Shown: one piece after another, positions 2,104-18,806 of the stretch
Position numbering within the stretch: the stretch's first letter is position 1
Layout: every line of letters begins with the position of its first letter
IMG/VR virus record: IMGVR_UViG_3300032086_003064
Location: 1-21,195 of that record
Length of the DNA stretch: 21,195 nucleotides
Source of the DNA: a virus
Direction: 5' to 3' (one strand)
The notes under the pieces: generated by a model
What the model saw: only the letters and a program-made list of their open reading frames with translations
Told to the model about the DNA's origin: nothing
Databases searched by the model: none
Position numbers and translations under genes: made by a program

Positions 2104-2132
2104 TTGACAGACTAAATAATATTATGTAATAT
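2104..2132 (+). promoter_or_regulatory. Candidate sigma-70 promoter upstream of gp32
   Basis: A TTGACA -35 box (2104-2109) is followed by 17 bases and TAATAT (2127-2132, four of six matches to TATAAT). It lies in the 100-base gap before gp32. Its start site would fall near 2139, inside the hairpin described next, so transcripts from here would lack the 5' arm of that hairpin. Confidence 0.5.
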
Positions 2133-2166
2133 AGACAATGTGCTTTATATTACATCTTTAGGCACA
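2124..2166 (+). promoter_or_regulatory. Potential hairpin/pseudoknot in the gp32 mRNA leader
   Basis: A perfect 10-base inverted repeat (2124-2133 with 2146-2155) encloses a 12-base loop. Loop bases TGTGC (2139-2143) are complementary to GCACA at 2162-2166, just past the stem, which is the layout of an H-type pseudoknot. It ends about 31 bases before the preferred gp32 start at 2198 and is followed by an unstructured AT-rich stretch holding the ribosome-binding site. T4 gp32 represses its own translation through a leader pseudoknot in a comparable position. The six-base loop crossing a ten-pair stem is short, so perhaps only part of the stem forms. Confidence 0.45.
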
Positions 2167-2197
2167 ATATATTAAGGCAATGAAAGGCAAAAATATT

Positions 2198-3178
2198 ATG
2201 ACATCACTAGCTGAAATCCGAGCAAAACTGCAACAGCAAGAAAGCAACTCAACTCAAGGACCAAGCGGTCCTAATCCTATTTTCCCATTTTGGAATATCA
2301 AAGAAGGCGAAAGTGCAACTATTCGATTCCTTCCTGATGGGGATCCTGATAACACTTTTTTCTGGCGTGAACGTCTAATGATCAAGCTTCCGTTTGCGGG
2401 CATTAAAGGTCAAACAGACAGTAAGCCAATTGTAGTTCAAGTTCCCTGTATGGAAATGTATGGAGCAAGCTGTCCTATTCTTTCGGAAGTACGTGGCTGG
2501 TTTAAAGATCCAAGTCTTGAAGACATGGGTCGTAAGTATTGGAAGAAGCGTAGTTACATCTTCCAAGGTTTTGTAACAGACAATCCTCTTACTGACGACG
2601 AAGCGCCGGAGAATCCTATCCGACGATTTATCATTGGTCCTCAGATCTTCCAAATTATCAAACAAGCTCTTATGGATCCTGATATGGAAGAACTTCCAAC
2701 TGATTATACTCAGGGTATTGATTTTAGACTTAACAAAAGTTCAAAGGGCGGTTATGCAGACTATTCTACATCTACATGGGCACGTAGAGAACGCCCACTA
2801 AGTGATGCGGAAATGCATGCTGTAAACAACTATGGTTTGTTTAACCTTAACGACTTTTTGCCAAGTCAACCTGATGAAACTGCTATCAAGGTAATGACAG
2901 ATATGTTTGAAGCATCTGTTGATGGCGAAGCATATGATCCAGATGCCTGGGGGCAGTATTTTAAAGCTCCAGGTATGAATACTGGCGATCCAGTAAAAAC
3001 AGCAGCACCTGCACCGGTATCAACACCTTCGCCTGCACCAGCAGCGCCAGTTGAAACAGTATCAGAATCAACACCTGTTGACCCGCCTTTTGAGCCTGAT
3101 CCTGCACCAGCAGCAGAAACAGCAGCACCACAATCGCAAGATATTCTTGCAATGATTCGTGCACGTCAAAACGACTAA
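2198..3178 (+). CDS. 32: gp32-like single-stranded DNA-binding protein
   Basis: This is the phage ssDNA-binding protein, which coats exposed strands during replication, recombination and repair and works with UvsX and the replisome. The core begins MTSLAEIRAKLQ, followed by FPFWNIKEGESATIRFLPDGD (about 29-49), typical of T4-like gp32 OB-fold proteins. I chose the ATG at 2198 (326 aa) over that at 2180 because family members begin with this motif and AAAGG (2183-2187) sits suitably before it. Only two cysteines (C84, C92) occur in the region where T4 gp32 uses one His and three Cys for zinc, so zinc binding looks lost. Residues ~265-312 are a Pro/Ala/acidic linker, ending in a distinct tip SQDILAMIRARQND, probably a protein-interaction tail. 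Confidence 0.93.
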   Translation: MTSLAEIRAKLQQQESNSTQGPSGPNPIFPFWNIKEGESATIRFLPDGDPDNTFFWRERLMIKLPFAGIKGQTDSKPIVVQVPCMEMYGASCPILSEVRGWFKDPSLEDMGRKYWKKRSYIFQGFVTDNPLTDDEAPENPIRRFIIGPQIFQIIKQALMDPDMEELPTDYTQGIDFRLNKSSKGGYADYSTSTWARRERPLSDAEMHAVNNYGLFNLNDFLPSQPDETAIKVMTDMFEASVDGEAYDPDAWGQYFKAPGMNTGDPVKTAAPAPVSTPSPAPAAPVETVSESTPVDPPFEPDPAPAAETAAPQSQDILAMIRARQND

Positions 3179-3190
3179 CGTTTGATAATA

Positions 3191-3224
3191 GTAGGGCTAT
3201 GTAATGCATAGCTCTACTTTTTTT
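3191..3224 (+). terminator. Intrinsic terminator after gp32
   Basis: An 11-pair stem (3191-3201 with 3207-3217, one G-T wobble) with a five-base loop is followed by seven T residues (3218-3224). It lies 12 bases past the gp32 stop and 17 before UvsX, so it would separate gp32 transcription from uvsX, at least partly. Confidence 0.9.
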
Positions 3225-4330: not shown

Positions 4331-4558
4331 TTGGACGAGAATCAAATCATTGATGTATGGGCGGTATTTAAAGAATATCTTGACAAAAAAAGTGTACACG
4401 ATGTAGCTGAGCGCTATGTTGATACTCTTGTAGATTATGGTGTTGCTGACGAAACACTGCGTGACTGTTTAGGTCAAGATGTTATACTAGATGAAGCTAT
4501 TGAATATTACTTAGACGAAGACGACGCTGATGTCGACGACGACGAAGAGTGGGAATAG
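4331..4558 (+). CDS. Small acidic phage protein (TTG start)
   Basis: This encodes 75 aa and starts at TTG, supported by a strong AAGGGAG ribosome-binding site (4317-4323) eight bases upstream; there is no in-frame ATG nearby. The protein is very acidic: the last ~18 residues are nearly all Asp/Glu, ending DADVDDDEEWE. It lies 15 bases after uvsX and overlaps the next gene by 10 bases, so it is probably co-expressed with the recombination genes. I do not recognise the family. The acidic tail could contact a DNA-binding protein or imitate DNA, but that is inference from charge alone. Confidence 0.75.
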   Translation: MDENQIIDVWAVFKEYLDKKSVHDVAERYVDTLVDYGVADETLRDCLGQDVILDEAIEYYLDEDDADVDDDEEWE

Positions 4559-5016
4559 TAGTGGGCTGGTATAGTGAAATATCAAGAGACGTGGCTAAAA
4601 TACCTGCTGCTGTAGATTTTTACGAAAAGGAACTTGTATCGGCTAGGGCCGAAGTAAAGTTATCAGGTAGTGTAGAAAAAGCAGCAGCAGCTTTGCCCGG
4701 AACAGTAGAATATAGATTTAATCAATTGCAAGAAATCGAAGCTATATTAAATTATCTTAATATTGAACTGCGTAGATTACGTAGTTCTTTTTTCAAAAAG
4801 TATTTAGAAAATTATCAACGTGCACTTAGCAGTCGAGATGTTGAAAAATATGTCGACGGCGAAGCTGATGTTGTTGATTATGAAAAACTAGTAAATGAGT
4901 TTGCCCTAATTAGAAATAATTGGTTAGGAGTCTTAAAAGGCCTAGATCAGAAGCAATGGCAGATAACTAATATAGTTAAGTTAAGAGTTGCAGGTATGGA
5001 AGATGCAGTTCTGTAA
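4549..5016 (+). CDS. Possible UvsY-like recombination mediator
   Basis: This encodes 155 aa from GTG at 4549; the GTG at 4561 (VGWYSEIS) is a possible alternative start. The protein is helical and charged. Three things suggest UvsY, the T4 mediator that loads UvsX onto gp32-coated ssDNA. It sits just downstream of uvsX. Its size is close to T4 UvsY (137 aa). Its end (NNWLGVLKGLDQKQWQI then TNIVKLRVAG) has the rough pattern of the UvsY C-terminus, where a Trp/Leu helix is followed by a basic segment ending in an AG motif. The resemblance is by eye and from memory; a conserved phage protein of other function is the alternative. Confidence 0.6.
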   Translation: MGIVVGWYSEISRDVAKIPAAVDFYEKELVSARAEVKLSGSVEKAAAALPGTVEYRFNQLQEIEAILNYLNIELRRLRSSFFKKYLENYQRALSSRDVEKYVDGEADVVDYEKLVNEFALIRNNWLGVLKGLDQKQWQITNIVKLRVAGMEDAVL

Positions 5017-14264: not shown

Positions 14265-14520
14265 CTACATTACCGGACAAGCTTTAATTTATGAGCGAGT
14301 TGACGGTGTAGTATATGCACGATATCGAGATCCCCCTTATAATCATCAACCTCGTTGGATTATAGGCGGGGATGCTGATGCTGTTGCTAAAGCAAAAGGA
14401 TCGTTTTTGTCTTGGAATGATTTTGAAGCTATGAATAAGTTAGCAAAAGAACATCCAGCACTTAAAAAACAAATGTCTAAACTTTTAGATTTATATTTCC
14501 TTATAAAGGATAATCAATGA
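14257..14520 (+). CDS. Small conserved phage protein of unknown function
   Basis: This encodes 87 aa, overlapping the previous gene by eight bases and the next by four (ATGA), so it is embedded in a translationally coupled run. The N-terminal half (YITGQALIYERVDGVVYARYRDPP, about 4-27) looks like a beta hairpin, with PRWIIGGD following. The C-terminal half is helical (FEAMNKLAKEHPALKKQMSKLLD). No catalytic motif is visible. Similar short proteins occur in marine T4-like phages as far as I recall. There is no basis for a function. Confidence 0.7.
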   Translation: MVDYITGQALIYERVDGVVYARYRDPPYNHQPRWIIGGDADAVAKAKGSFLSWNDFEAMNKLAKEHPALKKQMSKLLDLYFLIKDNQ

Positions 14521-15293
14521 AAATTATAGCAGGACCGTGTCAACACGAAAGCCTTGAACACAGCACAATGATTGCCAAACACTGTAAGTCAGTGTGCGAT
14601 GATCTAGGCATTGACTATTATTTCAAAGCTAGCTTTGATAAAGCAAACAGGACAAGTGCTAACGGTAAGCGTGGTCGTGGCATGCAACGCACTATGGACG
14701 ACTTTGTACAAATAAAAGAAAATCTTGATGTTAAGATTCTTACTGACTTTCATAGTGTGTTTGAAATTCATGCATGGCGAGGTGTCGACGAATGGTATAA
14801 TGCTATAGATGTAATTCAAATTCCTGCGTTTTTATGTAGGCAAACAGACTTAATTACAACCGCTTGTAATTCAGGAAAAATTGTTAACATTAAAAAAGGA
14901 CAATTCTTAGCACCATGGGATGTTGAAGGTATATTATCAAAAACCAAAAGTGCTAACGAAGTATGGATAACTGAAAGAGGAACAAGTTTTGGATATAACA
15001 CTTTGGTGGTTGATTTCACTGGTATACTTTACATGCTTGAGCACTACAACAATCCTATTGTATTTGATGTTACCCACTCAGTACAGAAACCAGGTGGTAA
15101 AGGCTCAAGCTCGGGTGGTAACAGGAATTTTGTTGCTCCACTTTCCCGCGGCGCTGCTGCTATGGGCGTGGACAACTTTTTCCTAGAAGTCCATGATGAC
15201 CCTGATAATGCACCTAGTGATGGTCCTAATATGATACGTCTTGATAACTTTGAAACAGTTATTAAGGACATTAAGGATAGCTATCGTGAATAA
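14517..15293 (+). CDS. kdsA: KDO-8-phosphate synthase (metal-dependent type)
   Basis: This encodes 258 aa. It condenses phosphoenolpyruvate with arabinose-5-phosphate to form 3-deoxy-D-manno-octulosonate-8-phosphate, the first committed step to KDO. Diagnostic blocks are IIAGPCQHES (3-12), YFKASFDKANRTS (35-47) and FDVTHSVQKPGG (183-194). They are followed by LEVHDDPDNAPSDGPN (223-238). C8, H187, E224 and D235 fit the metal ligands of class II (metal-dependent) enzymes such as that of Aquifex; class I enzymes have Asn in place of the Cys. It is about 20 residues shorter than typical bacterial enzymes but keeps all key motifs. AAAGGA at 14505-14510 gives its ribosome-binding site, and it overlaps kdsB by eight bases. 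Confidence 0.94.
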   Translation: MKIIAGPCQHESLEHSTMIAKHCKSVCDDLGIDYYFKASFDKANRTSANGKRGRGMQRTMDDFVQIKENLDVKILTDFHSVFEIHAWRGVDEWYNAIDVIQIPAFLCRQTDLITTACNSGKIVNIKKGQFLAPWDVEGILSKTKSANEVWITERGTSFGYNTLVVDFTGILYMLEHYNNPIVFDVTHSVQKPGGKGSSSGGNRNFVAPLSRGAAAMGVDNFFLEVHDDPDNAPSDGPNMIRLDNFETVIKDIKDSYRE

Positions 15294-15990
15294 CACTGCT
15301 ATTTTTATACCAGCTAGATTAGCAAGCACTAGATTTCCAAAAAAGATGCTTGCTGACCTCAACGGCAAAAGTCTTATTCGTACAGTGTACGACAAATGCG
15401 TAGCTACTGGATTAGATACCTATGTGTTAACCGACAGTGCCCAAATAAAAGAAGAAATACCAGCTGAGCATGTATTCATTACACCTTACGCTGATAACGG
15501 CACTGAACGTTGCGCACACGGCGTTGAAGCAGTATCGGGCAAAGGCTTTTTTAGACGAGCTTCGGGAATATATAAAAGTTATATTAATGTTCAAGGCGAC
15601 ATGCCTGACATTACTGAAGATATAATCCTTGCTATTAAACAAGGATTAGACAAAGGGCATAAGGTAGTAACAGCATACACTGATATGGCTCCTGAGCTGC
15701 GCACAGATCCTAACTCAGTTAAGATGATTCACAACGGCACACATGCGCACTGGTTTTGTAGAGCAAGTTTAGAGTACGGTGATCATCATCTCGGTGTATA
15801 TGGTTACAATTGGCGCACACTGGTTAGCTATAAGTCTATGCCCCAGTCTAAAGAAGAAAAAATAGAGAAATTAGAACAGTTGCGTTTTCTTCAAAACGGT
15901 GTTAATATTAATATACAGAAGGTAGACTTTAATGGTATGGAAATAAATACACCAACAGATTTAGAGGAATGGCGCAAGCATAATGCCTAA
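15286..15990 (+). CDS. kdsB: CMP-KDO synthetase (3-deoxy-manno-octulosonate cytidylyltransferase)
   Basis: This encodes 234 aa. It activates KDO with CTP to CMP-KDO, the donor for KDO transferases. I chose GTG 15286 because AAGGA (15273-15277) precedes it by eight bases and because the mature N-terminus then reads NNTAIFIPARLASTRFP, the family's nucleotide-binding start; the ATG at 15241 is buried in kdsA. Further motifs are KMLADLNGKSLIRTVYDK (20-37), NGTERCAHGV (71-80) and NVQGDMPDI (101-109), the last being the metal/nucleotide site (normally NVQGDEP, so Met replaces Glu). It is slightly shorter than the usual ~245-250 aa. It overlaps kdsA and the PEPCK gene by eight bases each. Confidence 0.9.
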   Translation: MNNTAIFIPARLASTRFPKKMLADLNGKSLIRTVYDKCVATGLDTYVLTDSAQIKEEIPAEHVFITPYADNGTERCAHGVEAVSGKGFFRRASGIYKSYINVQGDMPDITEDIILAIKQGLDKGHKVVTAYTDMAPELRTDPNSVKMIHNGTHAHWFCRASLEYGDHHLGVYGYNWRTLVSYKSMPQSKEEKIEKLEQLRFLQNGVNINIQKVDFNGMEINTPTDLEEWRKHNA

Positions 15991-17182
15991 TGTAGAAATT
16001 AGTACAGTACCTACTGGAAGAAGTCCCGATAACAAATACTATTTCGGCGAACTTACAAGCGAGCTAGATTTAACTCGTCCTAAATATAATAAAATCGGTA
16101 AAGATGAAGACTTTGAAAAGTTCTTTGATCAAATTACAAGTTGCGAAGATTTAGATCATATTATCTATTTTACTACTTGCGGAATACGTTTTAGATTTAT
16201 AACTAACGATTATCGGCATGCCCAGTTTGTAAGAAATATGTTCACCGACGAAGATTGGGCAGACGAAGAGTCTTGGGATTGGACTATTTGTCATAGCACT
16301 TCGTTAAATATTGAAGAACCAAAGATCTATATTAACTTAGATAGTTGTGATATTTTAATTGCTGGCACAACATTTATGGGTGAAATTAAAAAGTCTGTAT
16401 TTGGAGTTGTAAGTTTCTTACTACCAAAAAAGAATATTTTACCTATGCATTGTAGTGCATTTACATTTGCTGGCACTACAAATCTTATGTTTGGATTATC
16501 TGGTACAGGAAAAACTACGTTAAGTAGTGACCCTGATTTCATGCTCATAGGTGATGATGAGATTGCATGGCATAACAAGGGCATTGAAATGATCGAAACT
16601 GGTTGCTATGCAAAAAGCGAGGGGCTTACACCTGATACACACGAAACTATATTCAATGCAGTTGAAAAGGCAAAAGATCATAATACACTTGTGATCGAAA
16701 ATCCCGGAGTGCCGAATGCTAGATTAAGCTATCCGTTGCATTGTGTTGAAAATGCATATCATCAAGATCGCGAATTTAATCACCCTAACAACATCTTTTT
16801 CTTAACAATGGATGCAAAAGGTTTATTTCCCTCAATAAGCAAAATTACCGGAGACACAGTAAAGCGTTTCTTTGAAACAGGGTACACTAGTCAAATGCCA
16901 GGCACCGAAGCAGGCACTGACGAGATTAAGCCTTTATTTTCGCCTTGCTATGGCTCGCCATTTATGCCAAGAGCAGTAAGTGAATATAGTGATTTACTAA
17001 TGAAAAAGATAGACGAACACAAATGCAATGTGTATTTGGTAAACACTGGTATGGACAAAAAAGGTGTTCGCTTTCCGCTTGACTTTACTAGACGATGTGT
17101 TAAAATAGCTATTACTGAGGGAGCAGCAAACCAATCTACTGCTTGTTTAGCGATACTAGAAGAATTAATTAATGCCAAATAA
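15983..17182 (+). CDS. ATP-type phosphoenolpyruvate carboxykinase homologue, shortened
   Basis: This encodes 399 aa, against about 530-540 in cellular ATP-type PEPCK (PckA). The cellular enzyme makes PEP from oxaloacetate and ATP. Retained active-site features are TGRSPDNKY (11-19, substrate Arg13), GEIKKSVF (133-140, Lys), LPMHCSA (153-159, metal His156) and GLSGTGKTTLS (171-181, kinase loop). LIGDDE (188-193, metal Asp), ARLSYP (246-251, Arg247) and NTGMDKKGVRFPLDFTR (354-370, Arg363) follow. Spacing of these matches E. coli PckA closely, apart from two shorter internal stretches. About 50 residues are missing at the N-terminus and about 55 at the C-terminus. It directly follows kdsB, so it probably supplies PEP for KdsA. 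A different small-molecule kinase activity remains possible. Confidence 0.88.
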   Translation: MPNVEISTVPTGRSPDNKYYFGELTSELDLTRPKYNKIGKDEDFEKFFDQITSCEDLDHIIYFTTCGIRFRFITNDYRHAQFVRNMFTDEDWADEESWDWTICHSTSLNIEEPKIYINLDSCDILIAGTTFMGEIKKSVFGVVSFLLPKKNILPMHCSAFTFAGTTNLMFGLSGTGKTTLSSDPDFMLIGDDEIAWHNKGIEMIETGCYAKSEGLTPDTHETIFNAVEKAKDHNTLVIENPGVPNARLSYPLHCVENAYHQDREFNHPNNIFFLTMDAKGLFPSISKITGDTVKRFFETGYTSQMPGTEAGTDEIKPLFSPCYGSPFMPRAVSEYSDLLMKKIDEHKCNVYLVNTGMDKKGVRFPLDFTRRCVKIAITEGAANQSTACLAILEELINAK

Positions 17183-17639: not shown

Positions 17640-18318
17640 AAAGTCATATACTTGTGAATACTGCAAAAAAAGTTATGCTAGAGAAAAAACACTAGCAGCT
17701 CATATGTGTGAACCAAAAAGGCGTTGGTTACAAAAAGACACAAAGCCTGCATTGTTAGGTTTATGGGCGTTTAACAGATTTTATAAACTAAGTGCAGGAA
17801 GTAAAAAAGAAAAGACATACGACGACTTTTGCAAGTCACCATACTATAATGCTTTTGTAAAATTTGGAAGTTATTTAAATAATGTACAACCTTTGTACAC
17901 AGAAAGATATATTGATCACGTTGTAACAAGTGGCATTAAACTAGATCATTGGTGTAAAGATGATTTATATGAAGCTTATGTGCTAGATCTAATTTTAAAA
18001 GAAGATGTACAAACTGCATTAGAAAGATCGATTAATACAATGATAGAATGGAGTAAAGATAACTCACCATCGCCTTGGAATCATTACTTTAAATATGTTA
18101 ATCCTAACAGAGCAGTATGGCATCTAAAAGACGGAAAAATTTCTCCATGGTTAGTGCTTAACTGCACTACAGGAAAAAATATGCTAGGTAAATTTTCAGA
18201 TGAACAATTGAATATGCTTGTAAATGTTATTGATCCAAAACACTGGAGTAGGAAATTTAAAAATAAGCCTGCAGATGTTGAGCTAGTAAAACAAGTTGTT
18301 AAAGAAAGTAAATTATGA
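17614..18318 (+). CDS. CCHC zinc-finger phage protein
   Basis: This encodes 234 aa from ATG 17614; an in-frame ATG at 17566 would overlap more deeply and adds a low-complexity head. Near the N-terminus, YTCEYCKKSYAREKTLAAHMC (12-32) is a C-x2-C-x12-H-x-C zinc finger (C14, C17, H30, C32), resembling a C2H2 finger with the last His replaced by Cys. The rest is mixed and aromatic-rich: LLGLWAFNRFYKL (48-60), NPNRAVWHLKDG, and KFKNKPADVELVKQVVKES at the end. A nucleic-acid- or protein-binding role is likely for the finger; the large C-terminal part is unassigned. Similar zinc-finger proteins occur in marine T4-like phages as far as I recall. Its stop overlaps the deformylase start (ATGA). Confidence 0.8.
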   Translation: MASTLKDSEKSYTCEYCKKSYAREKTLAAHMCEPKRRWLQKDTKPALLGLWAFNRFYKLSAGSKKEKTYDDFCKSPYYNAFVKFGSYLNNVQPLYTERYIDHVVTSGIKLDHWCKDDLYEAYVLDLILKEDVQTALERSINTMIEWSKDNSPSPWNHYFKYVNPNRAVWHLKDGKISPWLVLNCTTGKNMLGKFSDEQLNMLVNVIDPKHWSRKFKNKPADVELVKQVVKESKL

Positions 18319-18806
18319 ATTTATTATATTATCCTAACAAATTTTTATCTAAAACTTTAGACGAAGTTGATATAGAAAATATAACTTTTGACACTAAAGA
18401 TATTAAAGAACAAATGTTAGACATAATGTTATCTAATATAGGCATTGGTTTAAGCGCAAATCAAGTAGGGCTAGATTACAGACTTTTTGTTATGGGAAAT
18501 ACTAGAGAAGATGCAGTTATGTGCATTAATCCTAAAGTGTTACAATATACAGAAACAAAAAGTCTTGATATCGAAGGTTGTTTAAGCTTTCCTGGTATAA
18601 ACATTCAAGTACAGCGCCCAAGGGATATTCTTGTTGAATACTATGACGAAAATCTAGAGTTGAATCGAACAGTAACTTCTGATTACAGTGCAAGATTATT
18701 TTTACATGAACTTGATCATTTAAACGGCATAACATTTAAAGATAGAGTATCTAAATTAAAATGGAACTTAGCTGAAAAGAAAGCAAAGAAAAATGCCCGA
18801 CGTTGA
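18315..18806 (+). CDS. def: Peptide deformylase
   Basis: This encodes 163 aa. It removes the formyl group from the initiator methionine of new proteins. All three family motifs are intact: GLSANQVG (45-52), EGCLSFP (87-93) and HELDHLNG (131-138), which supply the Cys and two His metal ligands and the catalytic Glu. It lacks extra C-terminal domains and ends in a basic KKAKKNARR tail. Phage deformylases are known from marine cyanophages, where they are thought to help process host or phage proteins. It overlaps the upstream zinc-finger gene by four bases and the downstream polymerase-like gene by 14, so all three are probably translated together. Confidence 0.95.
   Translation: MNLLYYPNKFLSKTLDEVDIENITFDTKDIKEQMLDIMLSNIGIGLSANQVGLDYRLFVMGNTREDAVMCINPKVLQYTETKSLDIEGCLSFPGINIQVQRPRDILVEYYDENLELNRTVTSDYSARLFLHELDHLNGITFKDRVSKLKWNLAEKKAKKNARR

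Follow-up and report, generated by a model that had tools for sequence, protein, structure and literature searches.

Phage T4 gp32 binds a pseudoknot near -67 in the leader of its own message and spreads from there along A/U-rich leader sequence that contains UUAAA repeats (PMC535899, PMC3014915). An earlier note on the DNA analysed here, a stretch of 21,195 nucleotides from a virus (the window), proposed the same control by an unrelated sequence for the leader of a gp32-type gene. We ask whether this leader contains a selected pseudoknot, which messages could form it and what it might do there. The promoters, helices, repeats, gp32-type gene and terminator-like hairpin described below lie on the + strand.

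A candidate pseudoknot before a gp32-type gene

The gp32-type single-strand DNA-binding protein gene (2198..3178) has matches among the PHROG SSB families, with PHROG_1192 at E 8e-63. An alternative in-frame ATG is found at 2180, and the relatives align to the 2198 start. Sequence searches with the gene product gave no Pfam match and no PDB match, and the kinship to T4 gp32 is therefore remote. The predicted structure (mean pLDDT 75) agrees with the naming of the gene in the earlier note, since its fold matches T4 and RB69 gp32. The top six Foldseek matches are all T4 or RB69 gp32 (E 2.6e-7 to 9.6e-5), and the only structures matched below 0.001 are T4 gp32 (1gpc), RB69 gp32 (2a1k/2atq) and gp32-Dda (8gme). 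Judged by this model, the window gene is a true gp32 relative. Directly 3' of it lies a terminator-like hairpin with a T-run (3190..3218), and UvsX-like and then UvsY-like genes come after it (PHROG matches). The UvsY-like recombination mediator is at 4331-5016, separated from the UvsX-like gene by a 75-aa acidic ORF. Candidate metabolic genes occur farther downstream in the window (14517-15293, 15241-15990, 15983-17182 and 18315-18806), namely KDO-8-phosphate-synthase-like, CMP-KDO-synthetase-like and PEP-carboxykinase-like genes, recognised in the translations by eye only, and a peptide deformylase (PHROG).

The candidate knot reads, from 5' to 3', as the stem 1 5' arm ATGTAATATA (2124..2133), loop 1 GACAA (2134..2138), the stem 2 5' strand TGTGC (2139..2143), the stem 1 3' arm TATATTACAT (2146..2155), which is the exact reverse complement of ATGTAATATA, loop 3 CTTTAG (2156..2161; 6-10 nt in most relatives) and the stem 2 3' strand GCACA (2162..2166). 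The perfect 10-base repeat and the loop complement described previously are thus correct to the base. Stem 1 has 10 pairs in the window and encloses a 12-base loop, while stem 2 can be extended to seven pairs (2139-2145/2160-2166), one of them G-U. The knot spans -74 to -32 relative to the gp32 AUG.

Single-sequence folding gives the 134-nt window leader an ordinary energy compared with shuffles (z = -0.6). Three 10-bp inverted repeats with loops of at most 20 bases are found against 0.6 expected in 21 kb of the window composition, and only the one at 2124-2155 has a loop complementary to sequence on its 3' side, for which 0.1 is expected per 21 kb. Given the length and composition of the leader, the repeat would arise by chance with P ~0.012, and the repeat together with the knot with P ~0.0025, or in ~0.25% of comparable leaders. 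Rfam has no match for the window leader at gathering score, and a relaxed search returned two weak eukaryotic families only, far below their gathering scores. The window sequence alone is suggestive, and the decisive evidence is that from the relatives.

The window spacer between knot and gene (2167-2197, 31 nt) is almost without structure, at about -1.8 kcal/mol. In the window, this upholds the view that the spacer is unstructured, but in about one-fifth of the relatives an extra hairpin (e.g. GTAGC..GCTAC or GAGCA..TGTTC) lies between knot and ribosome-binding site (carriers are L009, L019, L022, L031, L042, L047, L065 and L066). The relatives' spacers are 43% A and no less structured than shuffles (mean z -0.4). 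Three copies of AGGCA run through this part of the window: the first (2160..2164) overlaps the stem 2 3' strand, the second (2175..2179) lies in the spacer and the third (2185..2189) overlaps the ribosome-binding site of the 2198 start. The motif is enriched 3' of stem 2 across leaders, at 1.7 copies per leader versus 0.04 in shuffles. Repeats of the T4 type (UUAAA/UAAA) were not found in the window spacer, which has a single UUAA at 2172-2175. The ribosome-binding site itself is at ~2183-2190; both helices stop at 2166, so it is not hidden by the knot.

Covariation and layout in related leaders

A scan of viral contigs yielded at least 80 close relatives, every one with a gp32-type gene, and two further scans added more distant ones. 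The leaders have in common TTGAC, 17 bp downstream of it a hexamer resembling a -10 box, an inverted repeat that varies, TGTGC and AGGCAC. The arms of the repeat come in many types (GTGTAG/CTACAC, GTATAG/CTATAC, GTAGTAG/CTACTAC, GCGTACA/TGTACGT, TTTGTAG/CTACAAA and others), and complementarity is kept throughout. The stem 1 5' arm overlaps the -10 box in one set of leaders (class A) and lies in the -35/-10 spacer in another (class B).

Covariation among relatives had been named beforehand as the test of the proposal, and compensatory changes are indeed found. Among 32 aligned class-A leaders, double changes occur in seven of the eight stem 1 pairs. In the same set, 32 cells are doubly changed against 14.2 in shuffles, a count reached in 0/500, and 88.8% of cells are paired, compared with 6-63% when the partners are slid. 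When 5' regions are exchanged between leaders, stem 1 becomes weaker by ~3 kcal/mol on average, and a leader's own region pairs better than swapped ones (z = -10, 0/10,000 permutations, kinship ignored). Exchange within classes, again ignoring kinship, reaches the real pairing in 0/20,000 cases for class A and 1/20,000 for class B. Because the arm types vary, inheritance alone is an unlikely explanation of this pairing.

Stem 2 (4-5 pairs) is almost invariant across class A, so that its pairing rests on a few compensatory cases, namely L001 (TATGC/GCATA), L003 (TGTATT/AATACA) and L052 (GTATT/AATAC), and swapping its partners between leaders is uninformative. Each stem shows one double change between the window and its nearest relative, L001: A-T in the window becomes G-C in stem 1, and G-C becomes A-T in stem 2. 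RNAalifold favours a stem 1 lengthened by G-U pairs over the strand of stem 2. We further note a second downstream complement to the stem 2 strand (AGCAC/AGCATA) in 21 of 55 leaders, where 2.9 are expected, which is a possible alternative partner judging by its sequence. Taken as sequence comparisons, these data support a selected RNA pairing upstream of gp32 in the relatives.

The layout varies outside class A. In class B (L013, L022, L031, L042, L065 and others), stem 1 is retained, lies in the -35/-10 spacer and covaries. In L050, L053, L059 and L074, and likewise in the L185 group, the two helices share a strand and are mutually exclusive. A further group of gp32 leaders (L186, L191, L193, L201, L207, L209, L212, L233 and others) has a terminator-like element ~60-120 bases before gp32: the promoter -10 lies inside a hairpin that starts a few bases after TAAATA and is followed by a T-run, and the hairpin arms differ between leaders with complementarity retained. 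In the isolated Pseudomonas phage PA5oct (L083), whose gp32 is 54.6% identical to that of the window, an H-type pseudoknot candidate at 1424-1466 (-77 to -35 of gp32) is built from AGTTTTGC/GCAAAACT plus AACCC/GGGTT; it is unrelated in sequence to the window knot and identical in Ettore and 30-3. The leaders of RaK2, 121Q, GAP32, CBB, BF and Munch have no convincing equivalent knot, and the automatic matches there are long-range and weak. By sequence, then, the knot is not universal among gp32 leaders.

Two overlapping promoters and their predicted starts

A sigma70-type (early/middle) promoter at 2104..2132 consists of TTGACA (2104-2109), a 17-bp spacer and TAATAT (2127-2132). This candidate, proposed earlier as starting inside the hairpin, is confirmed, with a predicted +1 at ~2139, seven bases after the -10 and at the first base of stem 2. 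TTGAC is present in 79 of 79 full leaders, nearly all of them with a -10-like hexamer 17 bp on among the matches listed. In the 357-kb relative L071, TTGACA occurs upstream of genes 31 times, versus 6 on the opposite strand.

The earlier note missed an element located within the 17-bp spacer of this promoter, a late-type promoter ACTAAATA (2111..2118) with TAAATA at 2113-2118. No other hexamer upstream of genes in L071 has as strong a strand bias as TAAATA (60 vs 18), which often occurs as GATAAATA, a form that resembles T4's late promoter and differs from it in the first base. The T4 consensus TATAAATA was dropped as the late promoter for lack of enrichment over control; the enriched forms are GATAAATA, CTAAATA and TAAATA. 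Upstream regions in L071 divide into 52 with the late-type motif only, 34 with TTGAC only and six with both, gp32 included. Composite TTGAC+TAAATA promoters at other genes are few and inconsistent. Two composites in L071, near 207091 and 354675, have a hairpin that begins 4-5 bases after TAAATA.

The late start can be placed from the spacing of the motif to start codons. Over 11 contigs (L071 and 10 others), TAAATA-N5-ATG is found 113 times versus 23 in the control, and a 7-base gap 30 versus 33 times. From this enrichment, many late messages of these giant phages would seem to be leaderless, and the late +1 falls at the last A + 6, the sixth base after the motif. Applied to the window, this spacing predicts a late +1 at 2124, where stem 1 begins. 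The same TAARTA-N5-stem 1 register, with the late +1 at the start of the stem 1 core, is seen in 34 of 34 class-A leaders examined, and where shifts of 2 nt relative to the -35 occur, the late motif and stem 1 move together.

We infer that both promoters fire as read and that the two stems coexist on one message. Since the early start lies inside the knot, early messages would lack the 5' arm, and late or read-through messages could fold the knot. Early-type messages are predicted to form the TGTGC/GCACA hairpin only. Sequence and register agree that the structure depends on the promoter. The expectation that short and long messages differ is supported, as the sigma70-type start inside the hairpin would remove the 5' arm. 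The companion claim, that only transcripts from upstream could form the knot, needs correction, as messages from the late-type promoter (2113-2118) are predicted to begin at 2124. Class B has no late motif within ~40 bases 5' of stem 1, and mostly none in 500 bases; only upstream messages could therefore use stem 1 there.

Proposed feedback on late messages and competing explanations

We propose that the knot forms only on messages that contain 2124-2133. Such long messages would have two sources, the late promoter next to the knot, with its predicted start at the first base of stem 1, and transcription that reads through from the upstream gene. Sigma70-type messages, beginning at the first base of stem 2, would lack the stem 1 5' arm. 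Excess gp32 would nucleate on the knot, as in T4, and spread across the A-rich spacer, the AGGCA repeats and the ribosome-binding site, turning translation off. Early messages would evade this control or respond to it less, allowing full gp32 synthesis before replication and feedback afterwards. Here we infer that gp32 is the ligand and repression the outcome. The statement as a whole, a selected knot on long messages only with T4-like gp32 autorepression there, seems to us somewhat better than an even proposition. On the balance of the analysis, gp32 autorepression would be the likeliest function of the knot, with protection of the mRNA 5' end second.

The comparison with the gene 32 operator of T4, T2 and RB69 underlies this proposal. 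Both have a gp32-family gene preceded by an H-type pseudoknot before an A/U-rich leader with the ribosome-binding site, the knots are similarly placed (beginning near -67 in T4, -74 to -32 in the window), and short elements are repeated in the spacer. The window differs in its unrelated sequence, its long stem 1 (10 pairs) and short stem 2, and in having AGGCA where T4 has UUAAA repeats. Its knot also lies exactly at a predicted late start, with an overlapping early-type promoter that removes the 5' arm. The likeness is one of sequence layout and predicted fold. In T4, RNase E cuts the gene 32 message at -71, just 5' of the knot (PMC3014915), a place taken in the window by the predicted late start.

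Other known systems share single features with the window. Promoter-dependent leader hairpins are described in T4 for I-TevI, segB, Aeh1 mobE, soc and e (PMC2988022), and there too the promoter decides whether the 5' arm of a leader structure is present. In I-TevI, a hairpin over the ribosome-binding site blocks the early messages from upstream and late messages are free (PMC2988022), whereas in the window it is the late messages that would carry the structure and the early ones that would lack it, with the ribosome-binding site outside the structure. The STAXI RNA motif consists of tandem pseudoknots near Ssb genes, in two or three copies and often with UUCG loops (PMC2864571). It resembles the window in placing a pseudoknot close to a single-strand-binding-protein gene, but the window has one knot, is not tandem and lacks an Rfam match. 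PA5oct also has its pseudoknot candidate before gp32; unlike the window, the candidate lies 3' of a TTGACA-N17-TATAAT promoter, so that the main message would carry the knot.

The main rival to autorepression is a 5'-terminal stabilising structure, in which each message carries a helix at its 5' end against 5'-end-dependent decay (stem 1 on late messages, stem 2 on early ones), the knot is a by-product and gp32 has no regulatory part. Each predicted start is indeed the first base of a helix, the leaders with mutually exclusive helices (L050, L185) still fit, and the T4 gene 32 mRNA, with its RNase E cut at -71, is the most stable T4 message (PMC3014915). However, stem 1 covaries in class B without an adjacent late start and hence is not 5'-terminal there, and the AGGCA repeats running into the ribosome-binding site are left unexplained. 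We regard this explanation as unlikely, though it deserves serious weight.

A transcription attenuator or processing site for upstream read-through, separating the upstream unit from gp32, is improbable. The L186, L191, L207 and L212 groups do have a terminator-like hairpin and T-run at the same promoter-overlapping place, and the stop of the upstream ORF is only 7 bases 5' of the -35. Yet stem 1 is not followed by a T-run in the window group, and an attenuator gives no role to the stem 2 strand or to the late promoter register. Still less probable is that the inverted repeat acts in DNA only, where a repressor of the sigma70-type promoter would bind it as an operator. Its position, over the -10 in class A and across the start site, would suit an operator, but its arm sequence and spacing vary freely, where a protein site would keep both, and the 5' arm lies at the -10 in one class and in the spacer in the other. 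What is conserved is complementarity, not sequence or spacing, and we reject the operator on this ground. A chance fold of an AT-rich leader, with which the ordinary single-sequence energy would agree, is barely credible against covariation in dozens of leaders and a conserved register, and for stem 1 a chance origin is refuted by the relatives.

Autorepression remains our preferred function for the knot, and a broader reading can be attached to the layout. In this large group of giant phages, the gp32 leader would be a promoter-set RNA switch, in which each of two overlapping promoters starts at the first base of one of two nested helices, early and late messages adopt different folds and feedback can act on the late ones only, the layout being kept with unrelated sequences in distant subgroups either as a pseudoknot or as exclusive hairpins. 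We offer this generalisation tentatively, as one that may well not hold.

The leader knot and the promoter-dependent hairpins of T4 are already known, separately. A 2010 review considered the T4-type gene 32 knot as maybe the only viral pseudoknot in translational autoregulation, noting its absence from RB49 and calling for work on diverse relatives (PMC3014915). To this our analysis adds a candidate from giant phages that is supported by covariation; only fold and a remote similarity of profiles tie the gp32 of these phages to that of T4. The layout with an early promoter inside and a late promoter at the edge is not described for gene 32 in the T4-type open-access papers examined, and may exist elsewhere. 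By its sequence, the window leader appears to be a variant of the T4 gene-32 operator type, with putative binding and repression. The candidate forms a sequence class of its own, with natural variants numbering in the dozens, and opens the question of autoregulation to direct testing. It also ties the temporal choice of promoter to RNA feedback, a connection absent from the T4 gene 32 literature examined. These observations suggest that promoter choice may switch on feedback control of gp32 in a giant phage.
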